A stretch of DNA of 64,000 nt from contig CM057149.1 of assembly GCA_029964075.1 (NCBI GenBank), positions 4,536,465-4,600,464 on the forward strand, read 5' to 3'. The DNA is from Patiria pectinifera. Lineage: Eukaryota; Echinodermata; Asteroidea; Valvatida; Asterinidae. Every line of letters starts with the position of its first letter. Position 1 is the stretch's first letter. A program made the translations under genes and the position numbers. The notes beneath the pieces were generated by a model. That model did not search any database. It was not told where the DNA came from and saw nothing but the letters and a program-made list of their open reading frames with translations. Below are positions 16,838-56,436 of this stretch, one piece after another.

Positions 16838-16891
16838 CTGATCCGAACCTTTGTGCTTACCTTAAAACGCAAAAACCCATCCTTACACTCA

Positions 16892-17806: not shown

Positions 17807-17809
17807 CTA

Positions 17810-31860: not shown

Positions 31861-32585
31861 TGTTTCTTATCTTCAGCAAAAGTTTATTTTTTCTCATTAC
31901 ATTTATTATTTCACTTCGAGACACCCATTTATTTCTGCCTTTCCCAATCCTTCGAAATCCTCTCGAACTTTCCAAAGCTCCTTTCACCCTGTAAAGAATC
32001 TCCGTCTTCGAAAACACTGATTTTTGGAAACCCTTTCACCCTATAGCATGGAGCAACACGCTGCTACACTGGTAGGGCGCTACACAGGTAATATTCAACC
32101 GGACCACCCGGGTTGAGACTGCGGCTCTTGCACCCGGGTTAACATGAGAACATTTGCAGCCGACATGTGTACACATTCAGGGGTGCAAGCGTGTAAGGTA
32201 CACTGCGCCTACCAGTGTTTAATGGTACCCGATTCCACGTTATACGTTGCACACTAACCACTCGGTCTGCGAGACGTTAGCGTAGCTGATCTCAGAGCTG
32301 TCAGGTACGAAAGCCCTGTAGTGCCATCAAGTATATATTTTGTCCAAGTTCGTTTTTACGAGATTTTTTTTCTCGAAGTTCGTTTTTACGAGATTTTTTT
32401 TCTCGAAGTTCGTTTTTACGAGATTTTTTTTTCGAAGTTCGTTTTTACGAGATTTTTTTTCTCGAAGTTCGTTTTTACGAGATTTTTTTTCTCGAAGTTC
32501 GTTTTTATGAGATACATTTTCTCGAAGTTACGGAGTTTTATGAAGTTACGGAGCCCCTAAAGGGACATCCAAAATTATTTTTTTA

Positions 32586-32692
32586 TCTCGTGCGCACGAC
32601 ATAATATCTCGTGCGCACGAGATAATTATCACGTGCGCACGACATGTATCTCGTGCGCACGATATAATATCTCGTGCGCACGACATACATCT
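32586..32692. repeat. 21-bp palindromic tandem units in FB1 left arm
   Basis: Five units built on TCTCGTGCGCACGA, whose core TCGTGCGCACGA is self-complementary. Four mirrored units lie at about 33320-33392. Confidence 0.9.
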
Positions 32693-33448
32693 CACGGAAT
32701 GTCGGACGCTTCGCCCCATTTCCAAGTCGCCCCATGTCACTTCGCCCCTAACCACATCGCCCCATCCCCACTTCGCCCCATCCCCACATCGCCCCATCCC
32801 CACTTCGCCCCATTATCACTTCGCCCCATTCTCACTTCGCCACATCCCCAATTCGCCCCATCCCCACTTCGCCCCAGCTTTTACATGTAAAAAAAAGTCT
32901 CATCTAAATGTATTTTATTGGCTTAAAAACAATTCCAACAGATTCACTAATTGCTAACCAACGGAAAGAATTAGCCCACCAATATTGACCAAATGAACAA
33001 TTCATAACAAACCTCTCAAGCTATCACTCTCCGCTACCGAGAAAAAAAGCTTGAAGTAAAAGATCCAACTTTGTTCCCAACCCGGCTATACCACTTATCT
33101 GAGAACGACAATACCAATCTACATGGGGCGAAGTGGGGATGGGGCTAAGTGGGGATGGGGCGAAGCGGGGATGGGGCGAAGTGGGGATGGGCGAAGCGGG
33201 GATGGGGCGAAGTGGAATTGGGGCGAAGTGGGGATGGGGCGAAGTGGTTAGGGGCGAAGTGACATGGGGCGACGTGGAAATGGGGCGAAGCGTCCGACAC
33301 CCATCTCACCCATCACATGCGCACGAGATATATGTCGTGCGCACGAGATATTATGTCGTGCGCACGAGATATTATGTCGTGCGCACGAGATAAGAACATA
33401 ATTTTGGATGTCCTTTTAGGGGCTCCGTAACTTTAACTCCGTAAAATA

Positions 33449-34010
33449 TATCTCATAAAAACGAACTTCGAGAAAATGTATCTCATAAAAACGAACTTCG
33501 AGAAAATGTATCTCATAAAAACGAACTTCAAGAAAATGTATCTCATAAAAACGAACTTCGAGAAAAAAAATCTCGTAAAAACGAACTTCGAGAAAATGTA
33601 TCTCATAAAAACGAACTTCGAGAAAATGTATCTCATAAAAACGAACTTCAAGAAAATGTATCTCATAAAAACGAACTTCGAGAAAAAAAAAATCTCGTAA
33701 AAACGAACTTCGAGAAAATGTATCTCATAAAACGAACTTCGAGAAAAAAAATCTCGTAAAAACGAACTTCGAGAAAAAAAATCTCGTAAAAACGAACTTC
33801 GAGAAAAAAAATCTCGTAAAAACGAACTTCGAGAAAAAAAATCTCGTAAAAACGAACTTCGAGAAAAAAAATCTCGTAAAAACGAACTTCGAGAAAAAAA
33901 ATCTCGTAAAAACGAACTTCGAGAAAAAAAATCTCGTAAAAACGAACTTCGAGAAAAAAAATCTCGTAAAAACGAACTTCGAGAAAAAAAATCTCTTAAA
34001 AACGAACTTG
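33449..34010. repeat. 30-bp tandem array, right arm of FB1
   Basis: About 19 copies of a 30-bp unit (core CTCGTAAAAACGAACTTCGA) in two variants that differ by CTCGT/CTCAT and AAAAA/AATGT. The left arm holds about six copies in the opposite orientation (32344-32527). The 10-residue periodic open frames across it are by-products. Confidence 0.95.
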
Positions 34011-34180
34011 TACAAAATATATACTTGATGGCACTACAGGGCTTTCGTAGTCAGGCACCTTAGCAGGTACATTGTAAAGTGTGTCGTTTTTTTTTGAAAT
34101 TCAATGAGAGACGGATGCTCAGCAAAACAGCTCTGTGGCTCGGTACAATTAATATATCGATTGTAAGTCTAGGTTTAAAC

Positions 34181-34600
34181 CAGACGCGGTTCTAGAACAT
34201 ATTTTTTATGGGGGGGGGGTCTAGCAGGGGTGGATCCAGAAATGTTTGCAGGGAGCCGTGCTGAAATTTAGACCGTTTTTTTTTCTTCGAACACGTAGCC
34301 CTCCGTACATCAATAGGTGGTGGTGGTGGTGGTGGTGGTGGGGGTGGGGGTGGGGGTGGGCTCATACTGCCCTTTCAATGGGGAGCACTGATAAAATCAT
34401 GCACACTTTATTACCAAATAGTGTACAAATGCCCCTCTTCTAACGACTATTTTTTGGGGGGGTGAGAAAATTCGCATGTGACGTCGACTTCAAAATGTGG
34501 CCACTGCCATTTCAATTTAATTGCACAGTTTTGGGGCTAGACCCCTTTTTTTTGGGGGGGGGGGGTAACAGCCACACCCCCACCCGTAGAACCGCGCCTG
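34181..34600. mobile_element. hAT-like element with CAGACGCGGTTCTA ends
   Basis: The ends CAGACGCGGTTCTAGAAC and GTAGAACCGCGCCTG are inverted; GTTTAAAC (34173-34180) and GTTTGAAC (34601-34608) form an 8-bp duplication with one mismatch. The interior includes a second repeat fragment with GGGGTGGATCCAGAAA and GGT/G runs. The paralogous empty site is at about 37402. Confidence 0.82.
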
Positions 34601-35365
34601 GTTTGAACTTTAGTGTTTAATCTCCCCCTAGTAAACTTTCCTTGCCCAGACCCCTCCCCGGTCAACATTAACCAAAAGCGTATGCCAAAGGGGCGGGGCA
34701 AAGATAGAGCAAATAGAGCCGATAGAGCAAATAGGGGAGGACTTATGGATGATACTAATTAACACTTCAGGGGAGGTGCTCAAGAGTCTCGTACAGCTAA
34801 CTTAGGCAAAGTTTTGCACACGAGTAGAGTTTGAACACAAAATCAAGTAACATGTAGTGAAAGAGGCGGGAATGGACGGGGATAAAAGGGTAGGACATGG
34901 TACAGCTGAACATGGTACAGCAGAAAGGGGAACATGGTACAGATAAACATGATAAAAGCGGTGCTCGTTTAAAAAATACATGCATTTTGAGGCAAATATA
35001 TCATCACAAGGAATTGATACGGCAAAAGGAGTTGGTCACAGTTAGTGTAGCTTGAATATTTTCGTAATATAAAGCCTTTTATAATCTCACTTCCAAACAC
35101 GAGGCAAAATGTCTGGGTTTGTTTTACTTATATGATTACATTTTCTAAGTTTCTGTAAATCATGCTTCAAAATGAATACTTTAAACCGAGCGATTTTTTT
35201 TTACACATACATGTATGCCAATCTGTTTCCAGTGTCTTAAATATTACGCGTCAATCTGTGTTAGGTTTCAAAGGGTTCCCAAAAGATGTTATCCTCTCTG
35301 CTCGGGAAGGGGGAGTGGGGCATGCGCATAAATCCACCATTTGGCGTTTTGGTTGTACATACATG

Positions 35366-35844
35366 TCGTCACCGACACCACGAACTGACACCCTCTGCAT
35401 CACATGTGTACAAAAAAAAATTAAAAATCCAAACTTTCTTTTTTTTTGCACAAATTAGCAGTTTGTATCATGAAGTTTAACATGACGAGGTTAAAATTGC
35501 TGAAATCATATAAAATAAGCAAATTTTACTAATGAATTTTCAAGAAATTGGTCAATTCTGGTATTTTTGGTTACCACGAAGTGACCCTGCACAGGGTGTC
35601 AGTTCGTGAAAACCAAACTTGTACGTGTTTTCGGAGAGTGCGCGCATGCAATAGCGAGTGAGTGTCAGTTCGTGAAAACCAAAATTGACGCGTTTTGGGA
35701 GAGTGCGCGCACGCATGCGCAGTGTGTGCGCGCACTCTCCCAAAACGCGTCAATTTTGGTTTTCACGAACTGACACTCACTAACGCTATTGCATGCGCGC
35801 ACTCTCCGAAAACACGTAAATTTTGGTTTTCACGAACTGACACC
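35366..35844. mobile_element. Inverted-repeat element, copy B (right end lost)
   Basis: It begins with the same TCGTCACCGACACCACGAAC as 12315-12871 and follows it closely through the nested palindrome (GTGTCAGTTCGTGAAAACC, TGCGCGCACGCATGCGCAGT). It stops after an inner CACGAACTGACACC, so the last roughly 120 bp are missing. Confidence 0.85.
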
Positions 35845-36799
35845 TATCTTAATCATTTAATTGCTAATTAACTAAGCAGATTGTTACAATATATTTTCTT
35901 TCAATTTTCTTTTTTTTTAAAGAAATATAAATGCTGGATCCTCCCTCTTGTCGTCGAAATGGTTTAGGGGAAAATAACGAATTTCCGGGTATATTAAAGG
36001 GTATTCCTCATTAAATAGGCCAACAATCCGTCCGCCGAGCTTATCAATAGATCATTTGTGTTGTACATATACTCAAATTATTCTATTTTAGAATGTAATA
36101 AGGTACTTGAAGACATATGGTACTGCACCTCTAGCCTGGACTTGGGGCTTCAAAATTCTGAGAATTTTTGAGGCAATTGGGTCTGAAAGTTGCTCTATCT
36201 ATAAGCCACGTTGTGGAATATCCTTTTTCCAAATGGCTTCTTTTTCAATTTGAGAAACATCGTTCGTTTTAGGGGTGGTCTTTTGGGTGAAAATTTCTCC
36301 AAAATGTTATTAGTAAACCCGCCAAAAATTGAAAAGAAAATGAAAAATGACATGTTGATCATCATTTTGTTGTACAGCCTGATCAGCTGTGAGAGTTCTG
36401 AGTATTTTTAAAACGCTTTTGAAGTAAAAGTGGGGATTTATCACTGGTTTCTATGGGAATGTTTATACTGGGGTGCACCAGTTACAATAATAAGCTTACA
36501 GGTTGGGTGGTGAACCTGTTTCTTAAAATCTGAAGGCCCGGCAAAATGGTTTCTGGTGTATTTCTGGCAGTCAGAGGATTAATGTCTACCAATAGGCTAT
36601 CTATGATTGTACTCATAAAAGTGCTATGATAGCACTCATAAAAAATGACACCATTTGGCTCAATGTAGCTGGCAAATCTCAAGATAGATTTTTGAAAATC
36701 ATCGAAGCTAAGCTTGTCCTCTCTTAGGAATCTCATGCCCCTCTCCGCCCCAAAATATCCTAACCCCGCGAACACTGGCCAAACAAACTCGACATATCG

Positions 36800-38160
36800 T
36801 TTCCCAACATTATGGCATGGACGAAGTTTGGCCACTTGGCCTAAACAGACAAATTAATTTGTCTCATTAAAGTTATAATTTCATTTCGTGACATCCATTT
36901 ATTCTGCCTTTCCCAATCCTTCAGAGTCCTCTAAAACTGTCCACCCTCATGGTCCAACACTGATTTGGGGAAATCCTTTCACACTATGCATGTATAGCAT
37001 GAAGCAACACCGCTGCTACGGGTAAAATCATAGTTTCCAACTGGACCACCAGGGTTGACACTGCTGCTGTTACCTGGATAGAAAATCTCACATCTACAGC
37101 CGACCTGTGTACACGTTCAGGGGTGCTAGCGTGAAAGGTACACTTTGCCTACCTGTGTTTGATGGTACCCGGTTCCTTTGACGTTGCACACTTATTGATT
37201 TCAACCCGATGGTGCGAAAAGGTTAAATGGGTTTAAAATGAATTTTGAAGGTAGCTGACCTCAAGAGTTGTCATGCATCTTAGCAGGCCATACATTGTAT
37301 GTGATGTATAGTGTTTCGTTTCTTTTGGATCTTTAAGAAGAGTCGGATACCCGGCAAACAGCTCTGAAGCTCGGTACAATTTATACATCAAATGTAAACC
37401 TACGTTTTAACTGGTTTTGAATCTCCTTCTATTTAAACTGTATTGCCCGATCCCTCCCCGGTCAAAATTAAGCGAAAGATTATGCCAAAGGGGCAGGGCA
37501 AAAGTAAGCACGATAGTTGGGTGGGGTTGAGGTTAGCCTATATTGCAAATATGGGAGGACTTATGGATGTACTGAAACTGCAGGGGAGGTGGTCAAGAGC
37601 CACGTTCAACTAACCGAGGCAAAGTTTTTTACACGGCTACCGTTTAAACACAAAATCAACCCACGAAAACTGAGGCGGGAATGGGCGGTGGTACGGGACA
37701 TGGTACAGCCGAACATGGTACAACATAAAGTATGGGGTAAAGCTGAAATGTACAGCCGAAATGCATTGTCAATAACAATTACATGCAATTGGAGGCAAAT
37801 ATAACTTATGGCAAAAGGAGTTGGTCACATTTCACTTGTAAGTCGGCTGATTTTCCTTTTTTTTCTGTCAGCCTCTGAGCCTCTGTCATACACAATAGGC
37901 AAATATTACGTTTGTACATTTTAATGATGGAATTGTGTACGCTTCTATTATTCATGCTTTAGAGTGAAAACCTTATAAACAGAGTGATATTTTTTGTGTT
38001 TATATTTTACATGTCCTGTGTACAACAAGCTGTTTTCAGTGTCTGAAAGCTTACAGTTGTGTTAATTTATGTTATGTTTCAACAGTTTCAGAAGTGATGT
38101 AATCATTTCTACGCGGGGAAGGGGAAAGTGGGCATATGCACGATTCCGCTTTTTGCGTTT
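36800..38160. repeat. Segmental duplication, copy 2 (lacks the inserts)
   Basis: It carries the same blocks in the same order as 31815-35340 but is uninterrupted at GTCATGCATCTTAGCAGG (about 37270) and at TACGTTTTAACTGG (about 37402), the empty sites of the foldback and hAT-like insertions. Confidence 0.85.
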
Positions 38161-38407
38161 TTTGTCCGTTTTAAACTTAAAACTCTTACACTGTCTTATA
38201 AAGGAATAGTAAATGTAAGTTTGTTTCTGTTTTTTTATTTCTAAATGTAATTGTTAATTGTATTCAGCTGTTGGTGGCAATGCATAATTCAAGCAATAAA
38301 CCAATTAACCGGTAAAATACATTGAATCTGATTTTTTAAACTGTTGTATGCCAATGGTTTGCGGCTTCGATTCTTAGTGAAAGCATCAGGACTTTGTGCA
38401 GGAAGTA

Positions 38408-38503
38408 ATAGTTGAAAGTAGTACTTTTCTATTGCAGCATATTTGTAACAGTTTGATGCATTTTAATAAGTACTTTTCTATTGCAGCATATTTGTAACAG
38501 TTT
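38408..38503 (+). repeat. Tandem duplication of about 52 bp
   Basis: AGTACTTTTCTATTGCAGCA followed by TATTTGTAACAGTTT occurs twice in a row. No associated gene. Confidence 0.8.
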
Positions 38504-38997
38504 AATCTGACTGTCAGACTTGCTGTTTCCTACAAAGCCACGGAAACGTTAAATGCCTTAATAGCATCGGTCCAGACAATAGGGCCAGTTAACCCTAACT
38601 GTAAGGGCTCTTTGGGGGTTAAGTACCAAATACCACATTATACTACATGTGTTGTCCCACACTTGAATGGAAAGAAATGCATACTACAGGTTTACTACTC
38701 AGTGTAGTGTTTTGTAGCTTTAGCTGAGGTTAGGGAGGATGAAGATCTTGATGTATTTTTTTCTTTAAATTGTATTATTATAGTTTCCAATATTGCCGAC
38801 ACTAGCATATCACTATATATATAAAATCGAACTCCCGTATTGCATGTTTTATTGCATCAAGCTATGTAGGCCTATCCGTAAGGCTCAAAGGTGAATATAT
38901 TTGCACTAGAGATGCAGGGCTAAGAATAACACTTGTAAACACTTGAAATCGCGTTATTTGATAAGGAAAGTCACCCACTGACTTGTCAACTTTGTAG

Positions 38998-39119
38998 ATG
39001 TTTGCTTCACGGCAGACCAAAACAAAATACTTGAGTGTGGACTTCGGAACGTGGAAAACCCAGAATATTTATGGACGAAAGACGCTACTGAGTCCAAAGA
39101 TTTGGCAGCATTTTCACTG
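38998..39119 (+). CDS. Orphan exon candidate, unknown protein
   Basis: A 122-nt segment between acceptor CAACTTTGTAG and donor GTAAGCAC is open in the frame that starts in phase 1 and ends in phase 0. It would encode about 40 residues including ADQNKILECGLRNVENPEYL and TKDATESKDLAAFSL. Composition and both splice sites look exon-like, but no domain is recognised and no partner exon was found nearby. It may belong to a gene with very long introns, or be a transposon remnant. Confidence 0.35.
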
Positions 39120-39628
39120 GTAAGCACTATAATTATTTGTAATTATCGCAGCAAGATCATACCCATTGAAACGAGGTTAAGGGTAGTATTTAAGGGAATC
39201 AGCATTTTTAAGTTCAAAACGCGCGCAGATTGTTTCGAAATACATGCATATTCATTCTTAACACGCAATCAGTGCTGTTTGAGTATTTGTATTTGCATCT
39301 GGCGCAAGATTTCCGTGCAGATGAAAAAATTGTAGGGTTTGCAAAAAAATCTATCAATACACAAATGTCAGGAAAATGGAAAGATCTAGGGTCGAACAAC
39401 TCACTTCGTCACAGGAAGTCCAGAATGTCTAGCGTTTCAGCCATGATATAACATTAAAACGTGGACACAACACACTGAAGATATGATCACCGATCACGAC
39501 TGAAGAGTTTGTTCCATCCAGTTCGATTTTCCACGAGTCTTATGAAGCCCTCTGTCTTCCGTCCACTGCCATCCATCTAAATTTGTCTTTGACGTCCCCC
39601 CTTCCAGCTGCCCTCTACGATGCGCCCC

Positions 39629-39933
39629 GGTGGCGTAGCTAGGATTTTATTAGTGGGAGGGGGCACGGAGGGGGGATCAGAATATCATGGGGGATCAGAA
39701 TATCATGGGGGGCAGTTTTTCCCAGTTGGGCCCTATAATGCCTCGCTATATCCATTGACATAAGAAATTGTGAACAATAATCCTTTGACTAACTGAAAAC
39801 ATACAACTTACAAAAACCCTTTTTGGCCGGGGAAGGAAAAGGGGCATTATCAGTATATTGGTGGGGGCACCTGAGGGGGCACGGAAAAATTGTGGGTGGG
39901 AGGCACGTGACCCCCGCGTGGCTACGCCACTGG
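39629..39933. mobile_element. hAT-like MITE with GGTGGCGTAGC ends
   Basis: Left CCGGTGGCGTAGCTAGG and right TGGCTACGCCACTGG are inverted; TGCGCCCC (39621-39628) and TGCGCCGT (39934-39941) are an 8-bp duplication with two mismatches. The interior has a short tandem repeat (GGGGGATCAGAATATCAT, twice). Confidence 0.75.
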
Positions 39934-40771
39934 TGCGCCGTGGAGGATGATGCTGGCCAGTGATCCCTTGACTGTGATGATGTGATGTTCCTACCTCCCT
40001 TTTCACCTCCTGGTAAAGCTCTGTAGGCCTCGTTGTCTTGACATTTCTGACGTTATGCTATGTGTTGCCCAAGGTTTCTGTTTGCCCTTGGACTTTGCTG
40101 GCTGCTTCTTGCAGGTTTTCTTGGACTTTTCTGTGAAACTCCTCAGGTTTCATCTCTGTGGCTAAAAGCGGTGCACAGCGGCGACACAACGGCAAGAAAT
40201 AAATCAAGGATGTAACTGTCCCTCTGATATAGCCCACTCTGATATTTCGTTTCTTCTCCAGTTTTTTTTTTCAGTATAGGAGGCACAGTGCAGTAATTAT
40301 AGGTACATGTAATGATCACTGCCAATATCGGCATCAGGAAAGGTTCGGGGTTGTTGTTTTGTTGGCACCATCTATGCTGCCCTGAAATACGTTTGTAATT
40401 ATGATAATAGTCCATCATGTTGGGGTATTTCCATCAGGAGAGTGCCTGTTTGCCATGCCAAAGAGCTTTCGATCTTGAAAGGTGTTGCAGATGGTCAACT
40501 CATGGAAGTGTGCGTCCTCAAGAAGCCGCAGACCCCTGTCGTTGGTGGTGCCCATGGCCAGACCATGCCGGCCAGCGATATTTCCCCCCCCCCAAACGAC
40601 AACTGCATGGGGTGTAAGCTATGATATGTTAGACTCTACTTCTTTTAAAAACATGAGAAAAAAAATAAAATTAGAAAAAGAGAAATAGATTTGAACGTAA
40701 TGAAATTCGGACTTTATTTCCCTAAAAAAATCCTCCCAAGCCTCAGATTGGAAAAGAAAAGAAAAATCGGG

Positions 40772-40860
40772 TAAAAGTGGTGATTCGAACCCATGCCGCG
40801 AGGATCCCTAGCGGTTCAAAATCACAACCTTACCAGCTGAGCTATCGAACTGCTCGACAA
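40772..40860 (-). repeat. tRNA-like sequence
   Basis: The minus strand has TAGCTCAGCTGGTAAGG and GGGTTCGAATCACCA. The spacing between them is slightly long and the acceptor stem is poor; a tRNA-derived repeat is more likely than a gene. Confidence 0.45.
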
Positions 40861-40999
40861 TTTCTGAAAAATCATGGTAATACATACATTGCGTACCATC
40901 ATAAAAGTATCGTAGAGGGCGCTCAACAACCATGCAATGTGGATGTTGTTTTGGATAAATTAATTCGCTGCCGGCGAATTTTTGTGTGTGTGCCTTCCC

Positions 41000-41212
41000 A
41001 TTGGTAGTACCGGTCTTCGAATTCCAGTCCCCCGCCATGCAGGAGGTGAATAAGCCTATCTTGCTATTAGACCCCTTGCATGGAAGTTCCCGCGCTGTAG
41101 AATCTGTCCATCTGGTCTGCCTCAGTAGTTGTGCGTAGATCTGCAGGACAGAGAAGTTGAAGAGTTTGGCACTCACTCTGATATTGATGACACGGTCAGA
41201 CATTGGTCTCAA
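41000..41212 (-). pseudogene. Fragment of a LINE endonuclease
   Basis: The minus-strand frame contains INIRVSAKLFNFSVLQIYA, then AGDWNSKTG, matching the QVYAPT and GDWNAKVG motifs of the endonuclease at 18 kb at the same relative spacing. It is a small, diverged relic. Confidence 0.6.
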
Positions 41213-42294
41213 CGCTATGACTGCCCCGGCCTGCGGTATTTTTGTTAATCAGGAAGGCAGTCCCATTCATTTGTTCCGTGTCCTGTCCGCTGTATTTGAC
41301 CTCTTGATGTTCTCATCTCGCCCACTACACAGTGAGTCTTGTCTCAGCTATGCTTTATATATTCCAGGTATAGTGTTCTAGTTCATATTCCATCTGCTCG
41401 ATTTTACTGCTTACGTTCCACTTACCTATTTTGAATGTTTTCTTCTCAGTTTTAGTTGCGATTTTTTTTCGCCAGTATCAGACTTATCGCCACCACCCTT
41501 TCCAGTGGTGCACGTGGACGTTGTTAACCCGGGCCTCGTCGGATCCGTATGAGTGCCTTAATCGTTTTCGTCATTGTCAGTTCGTGGGCTACTTTGGGCA
41601 TGGGATATGTCGGCATCCTTCTCCTCTCCAGGCGACTTGCTACTAGATGGTCATTGGGTGGTGAGCTCATCCGCGCTTATCTACACAAACGAGATAGACA
41701 GAGCAGAGGACAAAGCTAGGCAATTCCAGCAATTCCAACGAAAAACAGCAATTTATGCAAATTCATTCTTCCCAGATCCACCCGAGACCAAATCGTCTAC
41801 CACAATACATCATCGATTCTCCTTCAAACCTGGTTTTTACAATATCATTTGAAAGCTTTACCCTGGGCAAAAAAAGGGATCGCGATCATTTTTATCATCA
41901 AAAGCTTCAATTTATTGACTCCATGGTGGAAGGTTTTCAGAGGTAAACAAACAAGTACACGACACACGCTCTCGTACAATGTTAAAAATAATTCCAACTA
42001 TGCGACAAAATATAAAGCAAAAGAGAGGTCTGTCTGGAAGAACAGTGGTGTAATTTATTTTCAAATTTCTTTTTTGGTTTTTGAAATTATTGGCTTTCAA
42101 ACTTTGAAGTATTTATTAAAATATGTGCCGCTAAATTAGCTCCATAAATTAGGCTCCAATGAGATCCATACGGCGGTGAAAGCAACTTGTGAGGAAATTG
42201 TTTGAAGAAAATTTATTTTGGAGACTGTTTTGCGCTTAATATTTACTATGGCATATAAGTACTTGGTTAATAATTACTTCCAAATAGGACCAGA

Positions 42295-42455
42295 AGGCAC
42301 CCCTGTGCACACGGGTGCCTTCGAGTTTATACCACGGGTGCCTTGGAGTTTATACCTCTGGTTCTTTTCAGAACCATTCTCTTATTTGAGAAATTATTCG
42401 CACATGGTGTTTCCGAAAACCTTTCATTATTGGGTGCCTTCGAGTTCTAGAAGCA
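42295..42455 (+). repeat. Short GGGTGCCTTCGAGTT repeats
   Basis: GGGTGCCTTCGAGTTTATACC recurs in three diverged copies (near 42320, 42344 and 42431). No coding meaning is seen. Confidence 0.6.
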
Positions 42456-42618
42456 GTTAATAGCCAGAAAAAAATCAAAGGGGTAAAAAAAATCATCTTC
42501 CCGAACTTTATACTGTTTGCCTGGGTACTCTGCTGAATTAAATGTCTATGAATTATATATCAGGTAAGTATTTACCATCGTTATTATCAGGTGAAAAACA
42601 TCCTGATCATTACTTTAA

Positions 42619-43001: not shown

Positions 43002-43009
43002 TTAAACAC

Positions 43010-44925: not shown

Positions 44926-44995
44926 GTAGCTCAGTTGGTGGATTGCCGGAATTAACGATGGTCCGGAGGTCCAAGTTTGAAACCCCACCCTAGTG
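44925..44995 (+). repeat. tRNA-like sequence
   Basis: GGGTAGCTCAGTTGGTGGA and a weak B box (AAGTTTGAAACCCC) sit at tRNA spacing with a CCGGA / TCCGG stem. The altered B box argues for a pseudogene or SINE head. Confidence 0.45.
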
Positions 44996-46588
44996 AATTA
45001 CATGGTACAATTATATATATATATCTTTAATTTTGGGATTAACCAGACAATAAAAAATTCGATTGAATAAACTTGGCAATCAGAGCCTTGGTATGTGTTC
45101 GACCAATCACAATGGTGATTAATATTTCCAGCATGTATGCACAAAAGTCCAACAGGCGTACATATGCGAACAAGGGCAACAGCTGGAACATGTGGGGCGT
45201 ATTCGAAACCCCGTTCTTGAGCAAACTCGTCCCCAGGGCTTTGAAGTTGTTGCGATTATTTTTCTTTCTTTCCCTCTTTTTTTCCGCGGGTTTTCTCCCA
45301 AACAGTTTATGATAGGAACTTGTTACCTTCAATATGTATCGACCCTCATCCTAAGTGGTGCATATCACTCAGGCGTCATTATGACGTCATCGGGTGTCAA
45401 ATTACAAGCGATTTTCGTTAAAAAAAAACTGACAATCTTCTTTCACCTATAACTCTTGAAGAAAGTAATCAATTTTATTCCAACCTTGTAATCGGATAGA
45501 CCATTAACTGATAAACATTTTTTTTGGTCGAGAACGTTAACTCGCTTGATCTTTACTTCCGGGTCTACAAGAAGGTCAAATTTAGGTCAAGTCAAAACGA
45601 AGACTTTAGCCTGAAATGAAAACAAAGCACAATTTCTTCCAAACCGTTTACGGTATGATCGTTAAACCTAGTGTAAACCTGTACCATGTAACGAAGATTT
45701 TTTCTTACGTCATCATGACGTCATCAGGTATCAAGTTACAAGCGATTTAAGGGCAAATTTTGACAAAACAGTTTGCGCTATATCTTTATTTATTGTTCGT
45801 TTTTTCGTGAGGTTGAGAAAATGTTTTTGTTCCCGGACACAAAACCGCTTGACCCTCACTTCCGGTGTTACTGGAAGTGCAATAAAAACCGAATATAACT
45901 CAAAAGCGGAAGCATTTTTGCTACACACACACAAATTATGAAAGTGTTTAGTGAGAAATGGCAGACACAAAAATTAACGTGATGACGCCATCTTTCGAAA
46001 GGGCGCCCCCTAGCAGCACATAAAATAGAGTTAGCTTTCTTTTCTTTTAAAACCATCCGTTCAAATTTTACCAAATCTCCCTTTGATATTCTTTGATTAA
46101 CCACCATGACTTGGCAAGGTTTCAAAATTATGACGTTATCAGACCGGAAGTCACTCTATGCAAATTTGAAAACAACCATATTTTAAATTTAATATATATC
46201 ATTCGATCCATGTCGTAAATCTGTAGCAAATAACGATATCCATTACAATCTTCATTTTTTGCTTCCAAATACTGTGAAGTCATCAAACCGGAGTTTAGGT
46301 GTTAAGCGTACAAACACTTATATTTTCCATATTTTCATACGTTAATTAACTTCACAATGAACATTTATCCACTCCGAACTGAATCAGTATTCACTTCCCG
46401 TTTTTAAAAAATGACGCCATCAAGCCAGACATAACTTGTATGTGTACTAAAATGTTTACTGAATTTCATCACAAAATAATTGCTTGTAATGGAAAGGATT
46501 TAATTTCGTGGTCCTTTGTTCTTACATTAAACATATTCATAACAAATCTCGGCAGTGTTTAATGAAAAAATGACTGCCCCACCACTCT

Positions 46589-46618
46589 GCGTTTGTAACA
46601 ACAAACGCGGACCTCTAG
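46589..46618 (+). mobile_element. Helitron-type 3' terminus 1
   Basis: Hairpin GCGTTTGT / ACAAACGC followed after a short spacer by CTAG at 46615-46618 and then TT. A 3' hairpin plus CTRR end is the Helitron signature. Its 5' partner was not located. Confidence 0.65.
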
Positions 46619-46800
46619 TTAGCTGTTCCCAATTTCAATTGGGAACAGCTCTTGTTTTCGTTAAAGTTTTTTTTTTTCCTTTTTTTTTTTTAGCTGTTCC
46701 CAATTTCAATTGGGAACAGCTCTTGTTTTCGTAAAAATTTTTTTTTTCCTTTTTAGCTGTTCCCAATTTCAATTGGGAACAGCTCTTGTTTTCGTTAAAG
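46619..46800 (+). repeat. Three stacked 5' termini of a Helentron-like element
   Basis: AGCTGTTCCCAATTTCAATT followed by GGGAACAGCTCTTGTTTTCG occurs three times (from about 46621, 46693 and 46756), each separated by T-rich tracts. Each copy is a 15-bp palindrome around TTTC, and its right half equals the subterminal ATTGGGAACAGCTCT near 52039. Confidence 0.85.
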
Positions 46801-46832
<32 letters not shown>

Positions 46833-46885
46833 TTTGGCTTTTCCGCAAAAAAGCGGAAAAGCCTTTCTTTTTGTTCTCATTTTTT

Positions 46886-46922
46886 TTCTTTCTTCTTCTT
46901 CTTCTTCTTCTTCTTCTTCTTT
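46886..46922 (+). repeat. (TTC)n microsatellite
   Basis: About eleven TTC units, preceded by T/C-rich sequence. The apparent reading frames here are low-complexity by-products. Confidence 0.9.
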
Positions 46923-47089
46923 TTGTCGCCTAAATCCCATAGACTTTGTACACGTTTTTTCTACACGCCACTTTTGACATTTATATTTGTCATACGTCAT
47001 TCAAAGTTAGCATAGTCATAGTCCTTATAGCAGAGATGTGCCCCGAAGAGTGACGTCATGATGACGTCATCGACTAATTTATTATAGAT

Positions 47090-48070
47090 TTTTGAATATT
47101 TAATTTTTCCCATAGACTTTGTACACAAAATTTAAAAAAAAATTGTCGGTTTTCAAAGGACATTTTCGACTGTTTGCCAGTAATTCATTTACACCAAACT
47201 TTGTTAAAGCAAAGACCCTAATTCAAACAACATTGTGTAATGATGACGTCATGATGACGTCATCAGGTGTTTATTTATAGGCAATTAAATTGTGACACTT
47301 TTAATATTTAAAAATGCATAAGAAATCAACAGTACGCGTCCGCAGCATTCTGTTGCCGGCAAGTGGTAGAGTAGGTCAAGGTCTTTATTTCTTTCAGTGC
47401 GCGTGAAATCACGTGACCCTTGCTTCCGGTCGAAAAAGGCCCAAACCGGAAGTGGCTTATTATTTGAAAGTGGTAACAGAAATGAACTTGCTTTCAACGG
47501 TGTTAGTCTCTTGGCCAATAGTATTCTTCAAATCATCTAACAATGACGTCATGCAATCTTCAAGCGCCCTCTAGCGACAGGTTGAAAATTAGCAAAAATG
47601 TATTTTGAATAGATGTCTGTGGCGAAGTTTGTCGGAATCGCCTAAATATTGGTGTATATAATGACCTTGACCACCTTAAGACGTGTGCGAAGTTTTAGGC
47701 GAATGACGTCATCAGACCGGAAGTTATAATGAAAAGACCCTTTTTCATTTGAAAATTCCTGAAAAATCAACCATGGCAGTTTTTATATTTGTTTTTACTT
47801 TAATTATTGATTGAAGGGTAGGTCTAAAACATTTCAAAGTTTCGAGGCGATAAGCGAACTCGAACATACCCTGCGCACGCTTAAAACTTCACCTTGACAA
47901 TACCTCTGCTTCAAAACATGCACAGGACAGGACGTCCACAATGTACATGTACATGTACATGCACGTACGTTGTACATAGGCACATACATCGTATGTCAGT
48001 CAGCCTGCAGCGCACGTGTTGCTGAGGTCAAATCCTGTCCACAGTGACCGTTTTAGCCGATTTTCGGCTA
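47090..48070. repeat. Long direct repeat, copy 1
   Basis: About 970 bp nearly identical to 50935-51915, including GCGTCCGCAGCATTCTGTTG and TCAAGCGCCCTCTAGCGACA (TCGAGC in copy 2). It reflects two members of one element family. Confidence 0.9.
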
Positions 48071-48775
48071 ACTTTGACAGATTTTATGTTCATGCATGCG
48101 CATAGACAGTGACGTATTATAGCACTTTTGGCATTAATCTTTGTCAGATATCATTGAAAGTTGACATAAGCATAGTCCCTATAGCCAAGATGTGTCCCGA
48201 AGAGTGACGTCATGGTGACGTCATCAAGTGATTTATTATGGATTTATGAATAATTGATTTTTCTCATAGACTTTGTACACAGCTTTCTCCACAAGTCTTT
48301 CCCTATACAAACTGATATATCTTACTGAGTAGTTCTGAACTTCGGCTGAGAATTACTATGAGAAGGAAAAAGAAATCGTATTTTTACTCCTGTCTTTTGA
48401 TTGAAAATATTCCTAATAGTTAGAATCGGTAGTAATATTTTCTAAAAAGGTTTCAGTTTAAAGGAATATCTCGCATTTAAAGGTGCAGTTTTTTGCTGTG
48501 GGATTTTAACCTATTGACTTTTCCCCTTTTTAAGCCACCATTTTCATAACTTGGCGATCTGGAATCGTCATCAAAGTTATAGCCAAGGAAGATCCTCATA
48601 CAAAAATTATACCAAGACTACGACATCATGATGACGTCATCTTCAAGTGATTTATTATGGATTCATGAATAATTAATTTTTCTCATAGACTTTGTACACA
48701 TCTTTTTCCACAAGTCTTTTCCTATACAACACTGATATATCTTACTGAGTAGTTCTGAACTTCGGCTGAGAATTA

Positions 48776-49743
48776 TACGGAAGCTTAAAGTGACCATCCG
48801 AGTTTCCAAGTTTCCGAGATAATTTATCTCGGAACGACGGAATACTGAGATAAAAACATGTCTTTTCGTGATATCGCATCTCGGAAAAACGTCTTTCCCG
48901 GAATTCGTATCTCAGAAAGACGTCTTTGCCCAATATCACATCACGGAATGACATCTTTCCCAGAAATCGTATCTCAGAAAGACGTCTTTCCCTGATGTCG
49001 TATCTCGGAAAGACATCTTCTCCTGATATCGTATCTCGGAGAGACGTCTTTCCTTGATATCGTATCTCGGAAAGATGTCATTCCCTGATATCGTTTCTCA
49101 GAAAGACGTCTTTCCGATATATGATATCAAGGAAAGACGTCTTTCGAGATGATATATGAGAAAGACGTCTTAAGATGTTATATCAGGTGAAAACGTCTTT
49201 TCAAGATAAGATATTAGAGAAAGAACGTCTTTCCGAGATGAAAGACGTCTTTCCGAGATACAATATCAGGAAACGTCTTTCTGAGATAAGATATGAGAGA
49301 AAGACGTCTTTCCGCCAGGAAAGACGTCTTTCCGGGATATCATATCAAGGAAAGACGTCTTTCTGAGATGATATCAGAAAGACGTCTTTCCGAGATGTTA
49401 TATCAGGGAAAGACGTCTTTCAGAGATACGATATCAAGGAAAGACGTCTTTCCGAGATGATATAAGAGAAAGACGTCTTTCCGAGATGTTATATCAGGAA
49501 AGATGTCCTTCCGAAATGCAATATCAGTGAAAGCCGTCTTTCCGAGATACCATATCAGGAAAGACGTCTTTCCGAGATACGATATCAGGAAAAGACGTCT
49601 TTCCGAGATACCATATCAGGGAAAGACGTCTTTCCAAGACACGATATCAGGGAAACACGTCATAAATATCTTAGTAATCCATCTTTCCGAGATAAATCAT
49701 CAAAGAAACGTGGAAACTCGAATGGTCACTTTAAGCTTCCGTA
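48776..49743. mobile_element. Foldback element FB2 with GAAAGACGTCTTTC arrays
   Basis: The termini TACGGAAGCTTAAAGTGACC and GGTCACTTTAAGCTTCCGTA are exact inverted repeats; GAATTA duplications lie at 48770-48775 and 49744-49749. The interior is nearly all units of about 30 bp with GAAAGACGTCTTTC and GATATC-like segments, reversing orientation near the middle. The empty paralogous site (GGCTGAGAATTACTATGAG) is at about 48343-48361. No coding capacity. Confidence 0.93.
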
Positions 49744-50739
49744 GAATTACTATGAGAAGGAAAAAGAAATCGTATTTTTACGTTAACCATTTGATTGAAA
49801 AAATTCCCAAGAGTCAGAATATCAAGTAATATTTTATAAAAATGTTTCAGTTTAAAGGCAAATCACGTATTTAAAGGTGCAGTTTTTCTGCTGTGGGATT
49901 TTTAACCCATTGACTTTGTACACGTTTTCAAGCCACCATTTTTATAACTTGGCGATCTGGAATCGTCATCAAAGTTACAGCCAAGGAAGACCCTCATACA
50001 AAAATTATGCCAAGACTATGACGTCACGATGACGTCATCACCTATTTTTTTTTATTGATTTTTGAAAATTTACGTACATATTGTGAAGTCTTATATCTAC
50101 AGAAATGTAAGTCCGATTGGGTTGAAACTTGGTATGTGGCTATACCAGGAAGTGTTATAGATTAAAAATGAGCTGACGTCATGATGACGTCATCCTGAGA
50201 TTTTATATGAATATTTGAATTGTTGACCTTTTAGCCATATCTTACGAACGCAACATGCAAAATGCAAAATTCTTTGCATTTGGTCTGTTATGTAATAGCT
50301 ATTCGTACGAAACTTGAAAAATGTGTGACGTCATCATGACGGAATCAAAATGCCATTTTTCAAACACCATGTAAGGAAAGGTCCAATTGTCATGAAACTT
50401 GGGGGGTAGGTAGTTAATCATACTAGTATGCAAAGTTCGAAATGACGTCACGATGACGTCATCAACAATTTAAAAATAATTGTCGATTTTCAAAGTGCGT
50501 TTTCGACTCTTTGCCAGTAATTTATTTAGATCACTCTTTGTCCAAGCAAACACCTTGTACACACGCACATACATCGTATTGCCGAGGTGAAATCCTGTTC
50601 ACAGTGACCGTTTTAGCTGATTTTTCGGCTAACTTTGACAGATTTTATGTTCATGCATATTCAGGGCATATTATTGATAAAAAAAAGTCATAATGCGGAA
50701 AAGCCCTATGTTCTGTTGCAAACAGACATAGATCTCTAG

Positions 50740-52005
50740 TTTTTTTTTCTTTTTTTTTCTTTTTCCACTTTTCCCATAGGTTTTGTACACGTTTTTATTC
50801 TACAAGCCACTTCGGCAATTATTTAAAATCCGATCAACTTTAAACTTGGCATAGTCATTAACAATCATCTGAGGATGTATGCCGAAACTTTTCGTCATGC
50901 TGACGTCATCACGTGATTTATTATAGAATTTTGAATATTTAATTTTTCCCATAGACTTTGTACACAGATTTTTTTTTTAAAATGTCGATTTTCAGAGGGC
51001 ATTTTCAACTCTTTGCCAGTAATTCATTTACACCAATCTTTGTCCAAGCAAAGACCCTAGTTCAAACAACATTGTGTAATGATGACGTCATGATGACGTC
51101 ATCCGGTGTTTATTTATAGGCAATTAAATTGTGACACTTTTAATATTTAAAAATGCATAAGAAATCAACCGTACGCGTCCGCAGCATTCTGTTGCCGGCA
51201 AGTGGTAGAGTAGGTTGAGGTCTTTATTTCATTCAGTGTGCGTGAAATCACGTGACCCTTGCTTCCGGTCGAAAAAGGCCAAAACCGGAAGTGGCTTATT
51301 ATTTAAAAGTGGTAATAGATATGAACTTGCTTTCAACAATGTTAGTCTCTTGGCTGATAGTATTCTTCAAATCATCTACGATGACGTCATGCAATCTTCG
51401 AGCGCCCTCTAGCGACAGGTTGAAAATTTTCAAAAATGTATTTTGAATAGATGTCTGTGGCGAAGTTTGTCGGAATCGCCTAAATATTGGTGTATATGAT
51501 GACCTTGACCCACTTAAGACGTGTGCGAAGTTTAAGGTGCATGACATCATCAGACCGGAAGTTATAATGAAAAGACTCTTTTTCCTTAGAAAATTCCTGA
51601 AAAATCAACCATGTAAGTTTTTATATTAGTTTTTACTTTAATTGTCTATTGAAGGGTAGGTCTAAAACATTTGAAAGCTCTGAGGCAATCAGCAAACTCG
51701 GACATGCCCTGCGCACGCTTAAAACTTCAGGTTGACAATACCTCTGCTTTGAAACATACACAGGACGTCCACAATGTACAGTACATGTACATGCACGTAC
51801 GTTGTACATATCGTATGTCAGTCAGCCCGCGCACAGCGCACGTGTTGCTTAGGTCGAATCCTGTCCACAGTGACCGTTTTAGCCGATTTCCGGCTAACTT
51901 TGACAGATTTTATGTTCATGCATAGTCAGGGACGTATTATTGATAAAAACAAATCATAATGCGGAAAAGCCCTATGTTCTGTTGCAAACAGACATAGATC
52001 TCTAC
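50740..52005 (+). mobile_element. Second copy of the inner Helentron-like family
   Basis: It begins in a T/C-rich tract and shares CCCATAGRTTTTGTACACG-type sequence with the first copy. From about 50935 it repeats 47090-48070 nearly base for base. It ends with the same GCGGAAAAGCC, hairpin and ATCTCTA, but the last base gives CTAC instead of CTAG. Confidence 0.65.
50935..51915. repeat. Long direct repeat, copy 2
   Basis: Matches 47090-48070 in order and orientation with scattered substitutions. It includes the TGACGTCATGATGACGTCAT block at about 51083. Confidence 0.9.
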
Positions 52006-52102
52006 TTATATGTCTATGGGTTCAACAGATAATCAATATTGGGAACAGCTCTGTGGTTGTTCACAACCACAATTTCTAGTTTTAAATTGATTTTCTTATT
52101 TC

Positions 52103-52593
52103 CAACCTCGTTTCCAATACTAAGCCCTGGGATAGGAACCTGCTTTCTGTGTCGTGATTCAATACCGCAATTAGCAACTAATGGATTTATATCGCGTACT
52201 TGGTGTTGTTATTTCCAACGTGTATTACGTGTTTTCATGTTTATCGTAATAATTACGTCCACACCTTTTCAAAAATAGTCCTTTCCCTTCCAAATTAGTC
52301 GTATTAACATGAACTGAGATACTTCATATTGGCTGGATAAAATTAAACATGTTAATATTTAATTAAATGTATTTTTAATTTTAAAAAGTCGTGTTTTCGT
52401 AACCCACCCCGCGACGAATTTTTTTTTTTTTACCCCAGACACAAACAAAACAAACGCTGATGTAAAGCACAGGCAGGCACCAGACTGTTCCTAATTTGCA
52501 TCAAAACATGTTGGACATGCAATTGCTCCAATACCAGGGTGCGAGAGCAAGTAGTGGTGGGTGCGTATGCTCGACACACTGGGAACAAGGTTG
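52103..52593. mobile_element. Inverted-repeat element with CAACCTCG ends, copy 2
   Basis: A diverged, inverted copy of 22554-23066: its right end reads CAACCTTGTTCCCAGTGTG on the minus strand, and the interior shares ACCCCAGACACAAACAAAAC and CAGACTGTTCC. The termini still pair imperfectly. Confidence 0.75.
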
Positions 52594-52987
52594 GATCTCG
52601 AGTGACCCCTCAACAGTGTTCTCGGGTTGTCGATTTAAGGGCGTAAGGAGTGTAGCTGGGCGAAATTTTCAAGATGACAGCCGCCGTTTTATGCGCTGAG
52701 GGAAAAGAATGGAAAACCCATTCATGATCTTACGAAAATAATTTAAATGCCGGAACAGCTAGAAAAATAAGCAAAGATCAGCTCACTCTTTGATACATTT
52801 GTATCATGTATTAGTACGTACTGCTGCTGTATTGAACGAGTGCTTTCGATTTCATGCACAAAAATCAACACAAGTTGCGGTAGGAGCCTAAGTCCGCCAC
52901 CTTTGTTCTTGATGTTCTGCACTTCTTTCTACCTAAGAGGGGAGTGAAAATCCTGTCCGGGAACACCGTTCGCATCAGCTTTTCGTT

Positions 52988-53034
52988 TTTCCAGAACCCG
53001 TTCTCGTGTTCAATCAACACGAGAACGGGGTTTT
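52988..53034. repeat. Perfect-arm hairpin
   Basis: AACCCGTTCTCGTGTT and AACACGAGAACGGGGTT flank a 5-bp loop. CGTATTCGAAACCCCGTTCTTG at about 45198 is related, so it is probably the end of a repeat. Confidence 0.7.
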
Positions 53035-53238
53035 GAATACGCCCGCAGTATGGCAGTATGGCATTTTTAGGCACGTGTTGGTATATTAAGGGTATTTTCT
53101 ACATCGAACGTGACTTTGCTCAAGTTTGATAATTTTTCATTGGATTTTAGGTTGCACTCTATTGGATCTGTCTACTACTGGATCTGATACATATTTCACC
53201 ACCTAAACATTGAGTGCTAATTAAGGCAGTGCAGCTAA

Positions 53239-53311
53239 ATGTCAGAACAGGAGGCACCGCCTGATGGACAGGCGGCAGCTGATGGAGAATCACCGTCCTC
53301 CGAGGAAGACG
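53239..53311 (+). CDS. Probable first coding exon of an unknown gene
   Basis: ATG at 53239 opens a frame of 24 codons plus one base, beginning MSEQEAPPDGQAADGESPSS and continuing with acidic EED, ending at a strong GTAAGT donor (phase 1). GC and codon character differ from the surrounding AT-rich DNA. The acidic, low-complexity N-terminus gives no domain. The next coding candidates are the microexons at 56437 and 58722, and the body of the gene would lie beyond the window. Alternatively it could be a chance frame; there is no transcript evidence here. Confidence 0.45.
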
Positions 53312-54960
53312 GTAAGTCCACACATTTTCAAAATATTACCATGCACTAGTATAATCGTTGTGTTCGCAGTCCCAATTTACCCCTTCAATTCATGTAATAA
53401 CATGCCTAAATATCACTTGCACTGCCCAAATTCCTGCTTCCCTGTGTTACCAGCTGTTGTCAGCCCTCTGGGGTATCAAGTCCCATGCATTTCCGGTAAT
53501 AGAGAAAATGTGATACTAATTATGTACATTTGTCAATACTCTATCAGGAGTCGGCAGCGGATACTGTTGGCACTGCCGGGAAGAATGAGGAGTTCTTGCT
53601 TGTACTACTGGGTGGTTCAAAATAAAGGAAATTCACTTATGACAGGGATTTCAATTGTTTATTCAAATAATATTAAAGTATAGACCTTTAACCATGCATG
53701 GTGAAAAAAAGCTCAGTAAAAGTCGCAAAATAGTGATATTATGCTAAGTTGAATACAAGTCACCAAAATCAGTGTTGTGCACGTGTTATTCTATGTAAAT
53801 TGGATGTTTTTGTAGTTCACAAAAATTAGAAACATTGCCAACAAAATGTTTTGACCTGAAACTTTTATTGAGGCTGCCCGGTTATTCATGTAAGTGTTAA
53901 GGTCGTCCAACCAAGGAGCTGTAGGCTTAAGTTCATTGTTGCATAACATTAGATAACAATGAAATGTCACAGTTGTAATCCTTTCAAATGTTAAAATGGG
54001 CTTCTTTGTAAGTGCAGTATTTTTTAAATTTTAATGTTCAAGCATGCGCATTATTGCATTTTGTGTTGAGACTATACCTCCGTGGACAAACAGGTTTCGC
54101 ACATAAAAATGTTGAAACAACTGTAGCTCAGAGACAAAATATGCAATGGCAACGATTTTGTTCACTTATGCTCAAAGTCCAGTACTTGACTAATAAAAAA
54201 GTTTAAAAGAATGTTTAAAATATGTGAAAATTGCTGTCAAAAATGGATTTCCTTTATTTTGAACAGATGGCAATCAAACAGTTGTCTGCAACTGTTTCTG
54301 CCCCGTGCAGAATGATAAACTTGCTTTAGGCCACCGGCCCGTAACACATACATTCACAGGGATCTACTTGATCAGACACCCTTCATGTCATTTGAAACAT
54401 TTGTCATAATCATATGAAAACACACACTCTACGTTTTGCTATGCACACAGGCGTGTATTGGGCTGATGCGCTTCGCCAGAAAAAGCCAATAAGCTTGAGC
54501 TTCCCTCTGAAAAAGAATACGAGAAGATGGTGTATATTCTGCTTTGCATAGCTTATGTCTCTCTTCATCGTTCAACATACAATTAACTAAATAGCAAAAT
54601 ATTACATATACCAAATTCATATATGTTGATCATGGTGACAATGAGATGAAATGTAAAATATGCAGTGCACGCATCCCTGACAACTTTTTTTTCTCCAAAT
54701 GTATCGGGGGACGTACTCCCTAGTGACAGTAAACCATGGTGATTCTAACACGCACAACTTTTCTTATTCGATCTCTCTCCACATCAACAATCAAATTGCA
54801 CGTTCGGGTCGAAACAGGACCTGAAAAACAGTTCTCAAGTGTACCTTTTGTACTCATTTCATGACAGACACAATATTATTTCATCACACCTTAGGCTACT
54901 TATACCCGAAAAAATTACGGAAATGTCTTTGAGCATTTCACAACCTCTTTAACGAACCTA
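53312..54960. other. Putative intron without recognised elements
   Basis: AT-rich DNA following the exon candidate. No inverted repeats, arrays or coding exons stand out before FB3. Confidence 0.5.
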
Positions 54961-54966
54961 TACAAC

Positions 54967-55945
54967 TATGGCGTGTTAAACGTTGCAATATTCAATGTTT
55001 TACAATATATATGTTGGATGTTCAATATGTGTTTGTTATCTTTTACATGTATGTGCGATGTTCAATATAAGTGTGCGATGTTTTTCATTATGTGCGCGAT
55101 GTTTAATATATTTGTGCGATGTCTTACAATATATGTGCGATGTTCAATATATGTGTGCGATGTTTTACATTTATATGCGATTTTCAATTTATATGTGTGC
55201 GATGTTTGACCTTATATATGTGCGATGTTTTCAATATTATGTTCGATTTTTTGCATTAAATGTGCGATGTTTTTCGATACAATTGTGTGTGATGTTTTAC
55301 AATATATTTGCGATATTCTCAAATATGTGAGCAATGGTTTACCGGTTTTTACCGTTTAGGTCTGGCTCTATTTACTTTACGCGATCCCCTGACGTCTCAT
55401 ACACTGACCTTAGGCAAAATAGTCAGACTTTCGCGGTCTAGTAACCAGACTTTGACTCTTAACGAATCATCGAATGAAAAGTGAAACATCAAATGCATAT
55501 ATTGCAAAAGATCGAATGCAAACATACCGATGAAACATCGAATACAAATAGCTGGAAATGTCAAACATATGTGTAAACCATTGCTCACATATTTGAGAAT
55601 ATCGCAAATATATTGTAAAACATCACAAACAACTGTATCGAAAAACATCGCACATTTAATGCAAAAAATCACACATAATATTGAAAACATCGCACATATA
55701 TAAGGTCAAACATCGCACATATAAATTGAAATCGCGTATAAATGTAAAACATCGCACACATATATTGAACATCGCACATATATTGTAAAACATCGCACAA
55801 ATATATTAAACATCGCGCACATAATGAAAAACATCGCACACTTATATTGAACATCGCACATACATGTAAAAGATAACAAACACATATTGAACATCCAACA
55901 TATATATTGTAAAACATTGAATATTGCAACGTTTGACACGCCATA
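54967..55945. mobile_element. Foldback element FB3 with TGTGCGATGTT arrays
   Basis: The termini TATGGCGTGTTAAACGTTGC and GCAACGTTTGACACGCCATA are inverted with one mismatch; TACAAC duplications lie at 54961-54966 and 55946-55951. The arms (about 54967-55335 and 55575-55945) consist of diverged units of about 20 bp containing TGTGCGATGTTCAATATA. The central 240 bp is unique. The empty paralogous site CCTATACGACCTCTCCAC is at about 57773-57790. Confidence 0.93.
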
Positions 55946-56436
55946 TACAACCTCTCCACTGTCCTGTGTAATTACAGTTGCTTTGGGTTCGCTCATAAGT
56001 TAATCGGTGCACACCACCTACATGAGGCCTATCCCAAATTCGATAGGTCAAGAAGCTAGATCGAGTCCCAACCAGGCGCTATATATTACAGTTATAATAA
56101 CAATTATTATTATAATAATAATTTTGGAGGCTAATCATGCTTACTCGCAGCTTTTATGCTGAATTGCGAAGGACGCGGCTGCAACGTGGTCGGGACTCTG
56201 GCACGTAAAGGCGCCTATGGCTGCCGGCCACATCGACCCATAAATTTCCACGGAGCACAGCCTGAGATCGAAAGTGTTTGATTTTTCAAGTTGGCCACAA
56301 TTAATGGAATAATTGATGAAAATGGCTGGCAAACCCCTGTCCATCCAAAAAAAGATCAGTTTTGTTGGTGTGACATATATATTTGACAAAAATGCAGATG
56401 CTTTCATTTACCATTTTTGTTTGGTTTGATTTCCAG

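Follow-up and report, generated by a model that had tools for sequence, protein, structure and literature searches.

Foldback transposons with 6-bp target duplications in Patiria pectinifera and their likely kinship with IS3EU/GingerRoot families

Introduction

Patiria pectinifera is an asteroid echinoderm whose genome assembly (GCA_029964075.1) comprises 613.5 Mb in 1020 contigs. The window analyzed here is a 64,000-nucleotide stretch of contig CM057149.1 (C21:4536465-4600464) and contains three unrelated-looking foldback elements, FB1, FB2, and FB3. The question raised by this locus is whether such elements can belong to one transposon group and depend on the same enzyme. A sequence-only reading of the window had proposed that one transposase family mobilizes all three in trans, and tolerates almost any interior, and had named IS3EU and, for duplication length, Dada as superfamilies with 6-bp duplications. 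The analysis presented here favors a different arrangement. FB1 and FB2 are likely to be non-autonomous foldback members of two related IS3EU/GingerRoot-type cut-and-paste families, each with its own longer, transposase-bearing copies. The ends and the 6-bp cut of FB3 make it a probable third family within the same superfamily.

Three foldback elements in the window

FB1 (1744 bp), FB2 (968 bp), and FB3 (979 bp) are each flanked by an exact 6-bp duplication that can be read from the window sequence: GTCAGG, GAATTA, and TACAAC, respectively (Table 1). All three have the long inverted arms of tandem repeats that define a foldback-like structural class. Over the first 60 bases, the two arms are identical at 58/60 positions in FB1, 53/60 in FB2, and 59/60 in FB3. 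The arm units measure 30, 21, and 16 bp in FB1, 31 bp in FB2, and 20/41 bp in FB3. TA..TA ends are present in all three alike. FB2 (TACGG) and FB3 (TATGG) fit the pattern TAYGG, and FB1 (TACGA) does not.

The window was scanned for 12-bp inverted ends that begin with TA (no more than 2 mismatches), have a 6-bp duplication, and are spaced 60 bp to 12 kb apart. Five pairs were recovered: FB1, FB2, FB3, an inner-arm match of FB3 (54989-55923), and a weak pair at 45937-46541. At the same mismatch limit, ten random windows with the dinucleotide frequencies of the real one gave 0-2 pairs each, and ten further dinucleotide-random windows held no exact 12-bp ends with a 6-bp duplication. The weak pair was rejected as an element; its arms are identical at only 29/60 positions, and random windows yield 0-2 such pairs. 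Sequence and scan thus bear out the TAYGR ends, the exact 6-bp duplications, and the tandem-repeat arms first described for these elements. Genome searches show three separate mobile families. The duplications also recur at independent sites in the genome, as had been expected of a mobile group; the counts are given below for each family.

Table 1. Coordinates of the foldback elements and associated features (window positions)
Feature	Position	Strand	Basis
FB1 left target duplication GTCAGG	32300..32305	.	sequence, end scan
FB1, non-autonomous foldback, ends TACGAAAG..CTTTCGTA	32306..34049	.	same ends on 14,763-bp rva_4 copy
FB1 left arm, 30-bp array, 6 units	32338..32529	+	
FB1 left arm, 21-bp array, GTGCGCAC palindromes	32584..32687	+	
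FB1 left arm, 16-bp array CTTCGCCCCATCCCCA	32709..32876	+	
FB1 core	32881..33120	.	matched by 16/16 other short copies tested, 95-99.5%
FB1 right arm, 16-bp array	33123..33290	-	
FB1 right arm, 21-bp array	33318..33392	-	
FB1 right arm, 30-bp array, 18 units	33443..34009	-	
FB1 right target duplication GTCAGG	34050..34055	.	
FB2 host repeat, high-copy, approximate limits	46935..52004	.	
Empty FB2 target GAATTA, neighboring paralogous unit of host repeat	48350..48355	+	
FB2 left target duplication GAATTA	48770..48775	.	
FB2, non-autonomous foldback, ends TACGGAAG..CTTCCGTA, 31-bp palindrome-bearing units	48776..49743	.	same ends flank rva_4 transposase, C3:6108026-6124264
FB2 right target duplication GAATTA	49744..49749	.	
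FB3 left target duplication TACAAC	54961..54966	.	
FB3, non-autonomous foldback, ends TATGGCG..CGCCATA, 20/41-bp units	54967..55945	.	
FB3 right target duplication TACAAC	55946..55951	.	

The FB1 family and its transposase

The 26-bp end of FB1 has 336 genome matches at up to 2 mismatches, and the reversed pattern has none. Exact 6-bp duplications flank 16 of the 18 distinct copies that have both ends, with 15 different sequences, and two copies are without; this count leaves out one same-flank duplicate copy (in locus L017) and two copies for which the retrieved stretch includes only one end (L010, L020). The interior is far from arbitrary, contrary to what had been supposed. All 16 other short copies compared contain the core of the window copy (213-251 aligned bases, 95-99.5% identity), along with the 21- and 16-bp arrays. 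These two arrays were not found in the tested parts of two transposase-bearing copies.

The same ends are also found on longer elements. The copy at C21:3514274-3529036 is 14,763 bp long, has AAATTT on each side, and has no additional FB1 end inside it, even with 5 substitutions allowed. Its two arms have 19 and 15 units of 30 bp. A frame running inward from the right arm matches the Pfam integrase-core family rva_4 (PF24764, E 6.7e-25), and further inward lies a HECT C-terminal fragment (E 6.4e-10), with another, weaker HECT match that misses the cut-off (E 0.014). A second copy, with its left end at C7:23270466, encodes the same transposase in one open frame (E 3e-26), 97-99% identical to that of the C21 copy. 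Its catalytic residues are spaced D-58-D-40-E. No C-x2-C was seen by eye between the first Met (residue 94) and the first D of the FB1 frame, where an HHCC zinc finger was looked for, and a PDB search with the transposase found no relative, the sole match having an E-value of 0.15.

At C13:6297440-6297489, the two bases TA are common to a right and a left FB1 end, as would be expected if an FB1 copy had landed 2 bp within the end of another.

FB2 within and outside a host repeat

The window copy of FB2 is a passenger. It lies in a high-copy host repeat with an inner direct repeat (46935-48097 and 50772-51923, 88.6% identity). The best 30 of 271 candidate FB2 loci, the window copy included, were examined, and all 30 have the same host sequence around FB2; because of this, FB2 is concluded to have entered the host repeat once and then been copied along with it. 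Near-identical FB2 copies were accordingly rejected as independent insertions for these 30 loci, whose host flanks are common to all. The matching GAATTA duplication is kept in 24 of the 29 examined loci with both ends. Since FB2 sits inside a high-copy host, the duplication in the window records one old insertion, inherited with the host.

That insertion can be seen directly. A related host unit free of FB2 reads straight through GAATTACTATGAG at 48350, and the filled site reads GAATTA-FB2-GAATTACTATGAG. The empty site is direct evidence of a clean FB2 insertion with a 6-bp duplication.

The host repeat also holds 20 of the 24 TGACGTCA palindromes of the window, at 47051-51382.

FB2 is found outside the host as well. 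A flank-weighted FB2 end pattern has 222 genome matches and no match in the control. Among 100 ends listed, the flanks are those of the host in 54 and differ from them in 46, with 28 different flanks among the latter. Four non-host +/- pairs under 61 kb occur among the ends listed, and two of the four have matching duplications. Both of these pairs enclose a transposase. The pair at C3:6108026-6124264 has exact ends, spans 16,239 bp, is flanked by GGATCG, and contains a 453-amino-acid frame with an rva_4 (PF24764) match. Its product and the FB1 transposase are 42% identical (residues 4-267 of 280, E 8e-63). In stretch L091, the arm of this copy shows 31-bp units as well as the beginning of the transposase frame. 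The pair at C7:16085856-16146510 spans 60,655 bp, is flanked by GTAACG, and has a related transposase inside.

Several observations concern the surroundings of these copies. Beyond the end of the C3 copy (L091:1520-3026) lie two more arrays of FB2-type 31-bp units in opposite orientation. They resemble a further foldback rather than a satellite, and the C3 copy may lie beside or inside such an element. The region C7:41.06-41.52 Mb contains 12 of the 100 listed FB2 ends, on both strands and with the flank TCTGTC or ACTGTC, as if a second FB2-carrying host sequence had been locally multiplied. Among typed transposase loci, 39/94 are on contig C7, 37 of these at C7:0.25-23.3 Mb. At C22:6691262-6703052, a divergent pair of transposase fragments is separated by about 10 kb.

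The FB3 family

FB3 ends have 180 genome matches at up to 2 mismatches. Exact 6-bp duplications (TACAAC, CTTGGC, GAAGTC, and TAGGGA) are present in four of the five copies with both flanks. For a search of interiors, 123 of the 180 ends were typed and three listed ends on short contigs were left out, giving 34 adjacent +/- pairs, of which 25 span 7-22 kb. The transposase loci used for comparison are the 94 typed from 131 matches; the remaining 37 matches are additional parts of the same loci. Six FB3 interior frames had no match in Pfam at E <= 0.1, and reading frames and a motif scan of 1.6-kb inward stretches at 30 loci gave no FB3 transposase. FB3 is tied to the group by TATGG..CCATA and the 6-bp duplication only, since its end pairs yield no transposase or HECT match and its six frames no Pfam match. 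Transposase-bearing copies with the same ends were found for FB1 and FB2, whose DDE transposases are homologous, and not for FB3 (0/34 end pairs).

Two pairs of FB3 ends have common flanks in opposite orientation (L077/L078 and L084/L085), which suggests inverted duplications. Long FB3 pairs cluster by eye midway along several long contigs, at C14 20-31 Mb, C18 11.4-13.2 Mb, and C2 11.6-13.3 Mb.

Superfamily placement and mode of transposition

IS3EU transposons have 6-bp duplications, and in rust fungi their ends read TAYGG..CCRTA (PMC12730594). A further account gives TA..TA ends and usually a 6-bp duplication for IS3EU, with GingerRoot mostly the same (PMC10045372). The TA..TA ends and the duplication length of the elements described here match these published descriptions, as the sequence-only reading had suggested, with FB2 and FB3 also fitting TAYGG, and on this basis FB1 and FB2 appear to work like IS3EU. 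The likeness includes the integrase-core DDE transposase without an HHCC region, and the rva_4 model probably covers the IS3EU transposase. It also includes a second gene opposite to the transposase, which is an alpha-kinase in fungal TET-bearing families and HECT here. The two sets differ in that tandem-repeat foldback arms, HECT in place of alpha-kinase/TET, and the TACGA end of FB1 are found here. Styx, an IS3EU-related element, is described as making new insertions with 6-bp duplications in fungal crosses, and the integrase of one source copy is reported to be non-functional (PMC10853768). Over their first 32 bases, FB1 and FB2 give a better alignment than shuffled sequences do (p 0.0014, or 0.008 without the first five bases; three pairs compared).

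Most likely, the transposase of each family would recognize its own family end and arm repeats, pair the two ends, cut the element out, and insert it at a 6-bp stagger. Short copies would be excised and moved in trans by the transposase of their family. By analogy, the arm units may be secondary transposase-binding sites. The authors of the Galileo study report a proposal that tandem repeats within terminal inverted repeats act in this way (PMC3573991).

Several points weigh against the proposed placement. It is based on ends, duplications, and transposase type, not on a tree, and FB1 departs from TAYGG. The transposase gene of the C21 FB1 copy looks broken, because its match to the C7 copy is split between two frames (residues 1-249 and 247-280, 99% and 97% identical). 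For that C7 copy, no right end was found at a distance of 13.5-16 kb. The evidence on the FB2 transposases is coordinates and scores, with sequence letters for an N-terminal piece only; this piece, from the C3 copy (L091), aligns with the FB1 transposase at 27% identity over 62 residues (E 5e-5). The transposase in the C7:16085856-16146510 pair is interrupted by one in-frame stop, and the duplications of two other FB2 pairs (C8:3814917-3815948 and C7:41213819-41223731) do not match. For FB3, the pair at C7:32540605 is without a matching duplication, none of the 34 pairs contains one of the 94 typed transposase loci or one of the 92 genomic HECT matches, and the ends are no nearer those of FB1 or FB2 than shuffles are (p 0.17 or more).

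Alternative explanations

The original proposal, in which a single transposase mobilizes all three elements in trans and needs only TAYGR and a few further bases, would account for the TAYGR ends and 6-bp duplications common to them. It is nevertheless unlikely, as the FB1 and FB2 ends each flank their own transposase, the two being only 42% identical, and the likeness of the FB3 ends to the others does not exceed that of shuffles. FB3 might instead come from another superfamily with 6-bp duplications, its TATGG end having arisen by chance. This origin is the less probable one for FB3 and still carries appreciable weight, given that neither rva_4 nor HECT was matched in any of its 34 pairs (25 of them 7-22 kb), that its six interior frames have no Pfam match at E <= 0.1, and that its end similarity is not beyond that of shuffles. 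Against it, TATGG..CCATA together with a 6-bp duplication is the signature described for IS3EU (PMC12730594), and the foldback arms are like those of FB1 and FB2.

Two further explanations are extremely improbable. Dada transposons are known to make 6-7-bp duplications. As published, they have no terminal inverted repeats and insert in small-RNA genes (PMC3706591); the elements here have long inverted repeats, and FB1 has 15 distinct duplications. Dada identity was rejected on these grounds, target choice being judged from the variety of the duplications, which removes the second superfamily named at the outset, and the rva_4 transposase opposes it for FB1 and FB2. Tandem repeats fill much of the length of each element, as they would if these were satellite palindromes made by recombination, with duplications arising by chance. 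Such palindromes do not explain exact ends and duplications that recur at different sites, the empty site of FB2, or the transposase-bearing copies. Two related IS3EU/GingerRoot-type families, with FB3 as a probable third, thus remain the favored account.

Arm arrays and comparison with other foldbacks

The arm arrays of FB1 change size independently. Among 18 copies, one of which is the duplicate, the number of units ranges from 5 to 20 in the left half and from 2 to 27 in the right half. The host-borne copies of FB2 include lengths of 886, 948, 979, 1009, and 1230 bp, which differ by about whole 31-bp units, and others differ by small indels. The arrays therefore grow and shrink after insertion.

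Seeding of satellites by such arrays had been suggested, and the FB2 unit was followed in this respect. This unit holds a perfect 16-bp palindrome and has 777 genome matches at up to 2 mismatches. All 36 exact units listed on C1-C13 have a listed FB2 end no more than 2 kb away, which argues against a large free array of the unit sequence, although diverged arrays would escape; for the FB2 unit, the suggestion was not upheld.

A foldback that fed a satellite has already been described as Tetris in Drosophila virilis (PMC4079207). Tetris likewise has tandem repeats inside its arms. Its repeats are about 220 bp long and grew into kb-size satellite arrays, none of which are shown here, and it is apparently non-autonomous. 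Galileo, of the P superfamily, also has long, internally repetitive inverted arms with unequal numbers of units and many transposase-less copies that are almost all arm (PMC3573991). It differs in its P-type transposase, its 7-bp duplications, and its units of about 210 bp in one subfamily of that species, compared with 16-41 bp here. Tm1, a Mutator foldback, has composite foldback-type arms and transposase-encoding members, and differs in its superfamily and its 9-bp duplications (PMC3169594).

Foldback structure, known from the P and Mutator superfamilies, is seen here in transposons whose transposase is of the integrase-core type and whose ends are IS3EU-like, and also on copies still holding the transposase. 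A literature search on IS3EU and foldback met the latter term only in a reference list. A possible role of arm repeats as transposase-binding arrays becomes testable in one more enzyme family.

Pairing of HECT with the transposase

HECT matches number 92 in the genome. An rva_4 transposase locus is no more than 16 kb away from 23 of them, compared with approximately 0.5 expected at uniform placement, and the two genes are convergent in all 23 pairs. These pairs include near-identical element copies, and the independent cases are fewer. The sites include C21:3524321, C1:5762763, C14:13347683, and 20 others, with the C21 copy of FB1 among the 23. The remaining 69 matches are not near a transposase locus, and no HECT match at all occurs inside the two matching FB2 pairs (C3 and C7). 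HECT and the transposase form a recurring two-gene arrangement, which points to an accessory gene kept by the transposon group.

In fungal TET-bearing IS3EU families, the transposase is described as opposite in orientation to an alpha-kinase gene (PMC12730594). A literature search joining HECT with transposon or IS3EU terms gave no paper linking them. Fourteen control genomes contained no match to the transposase or HECT family, a result that says little here.

A broader and more speculative model can be proposed. In an IS3EU-type lineage, the arms might be adjustable transposase-binding arrays already present on transposase-bearing copies, with a HECT ubiquitin-ligase gene convergent with the transposase carried through much of the diversification. 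The ligase might then govern turnover of either the transposase or host factors, and the success of a copy in competing for transposase might depend on its array length.

Other features of the window

The window also contains the remains of a non-long-terminal-repeat retrotransposon at 14727-18694 on the minus strand, with matches to a reverse transcriptase (PF00078, E 6.8e-22) and an endonuclease (PF14529, E 6e-9).

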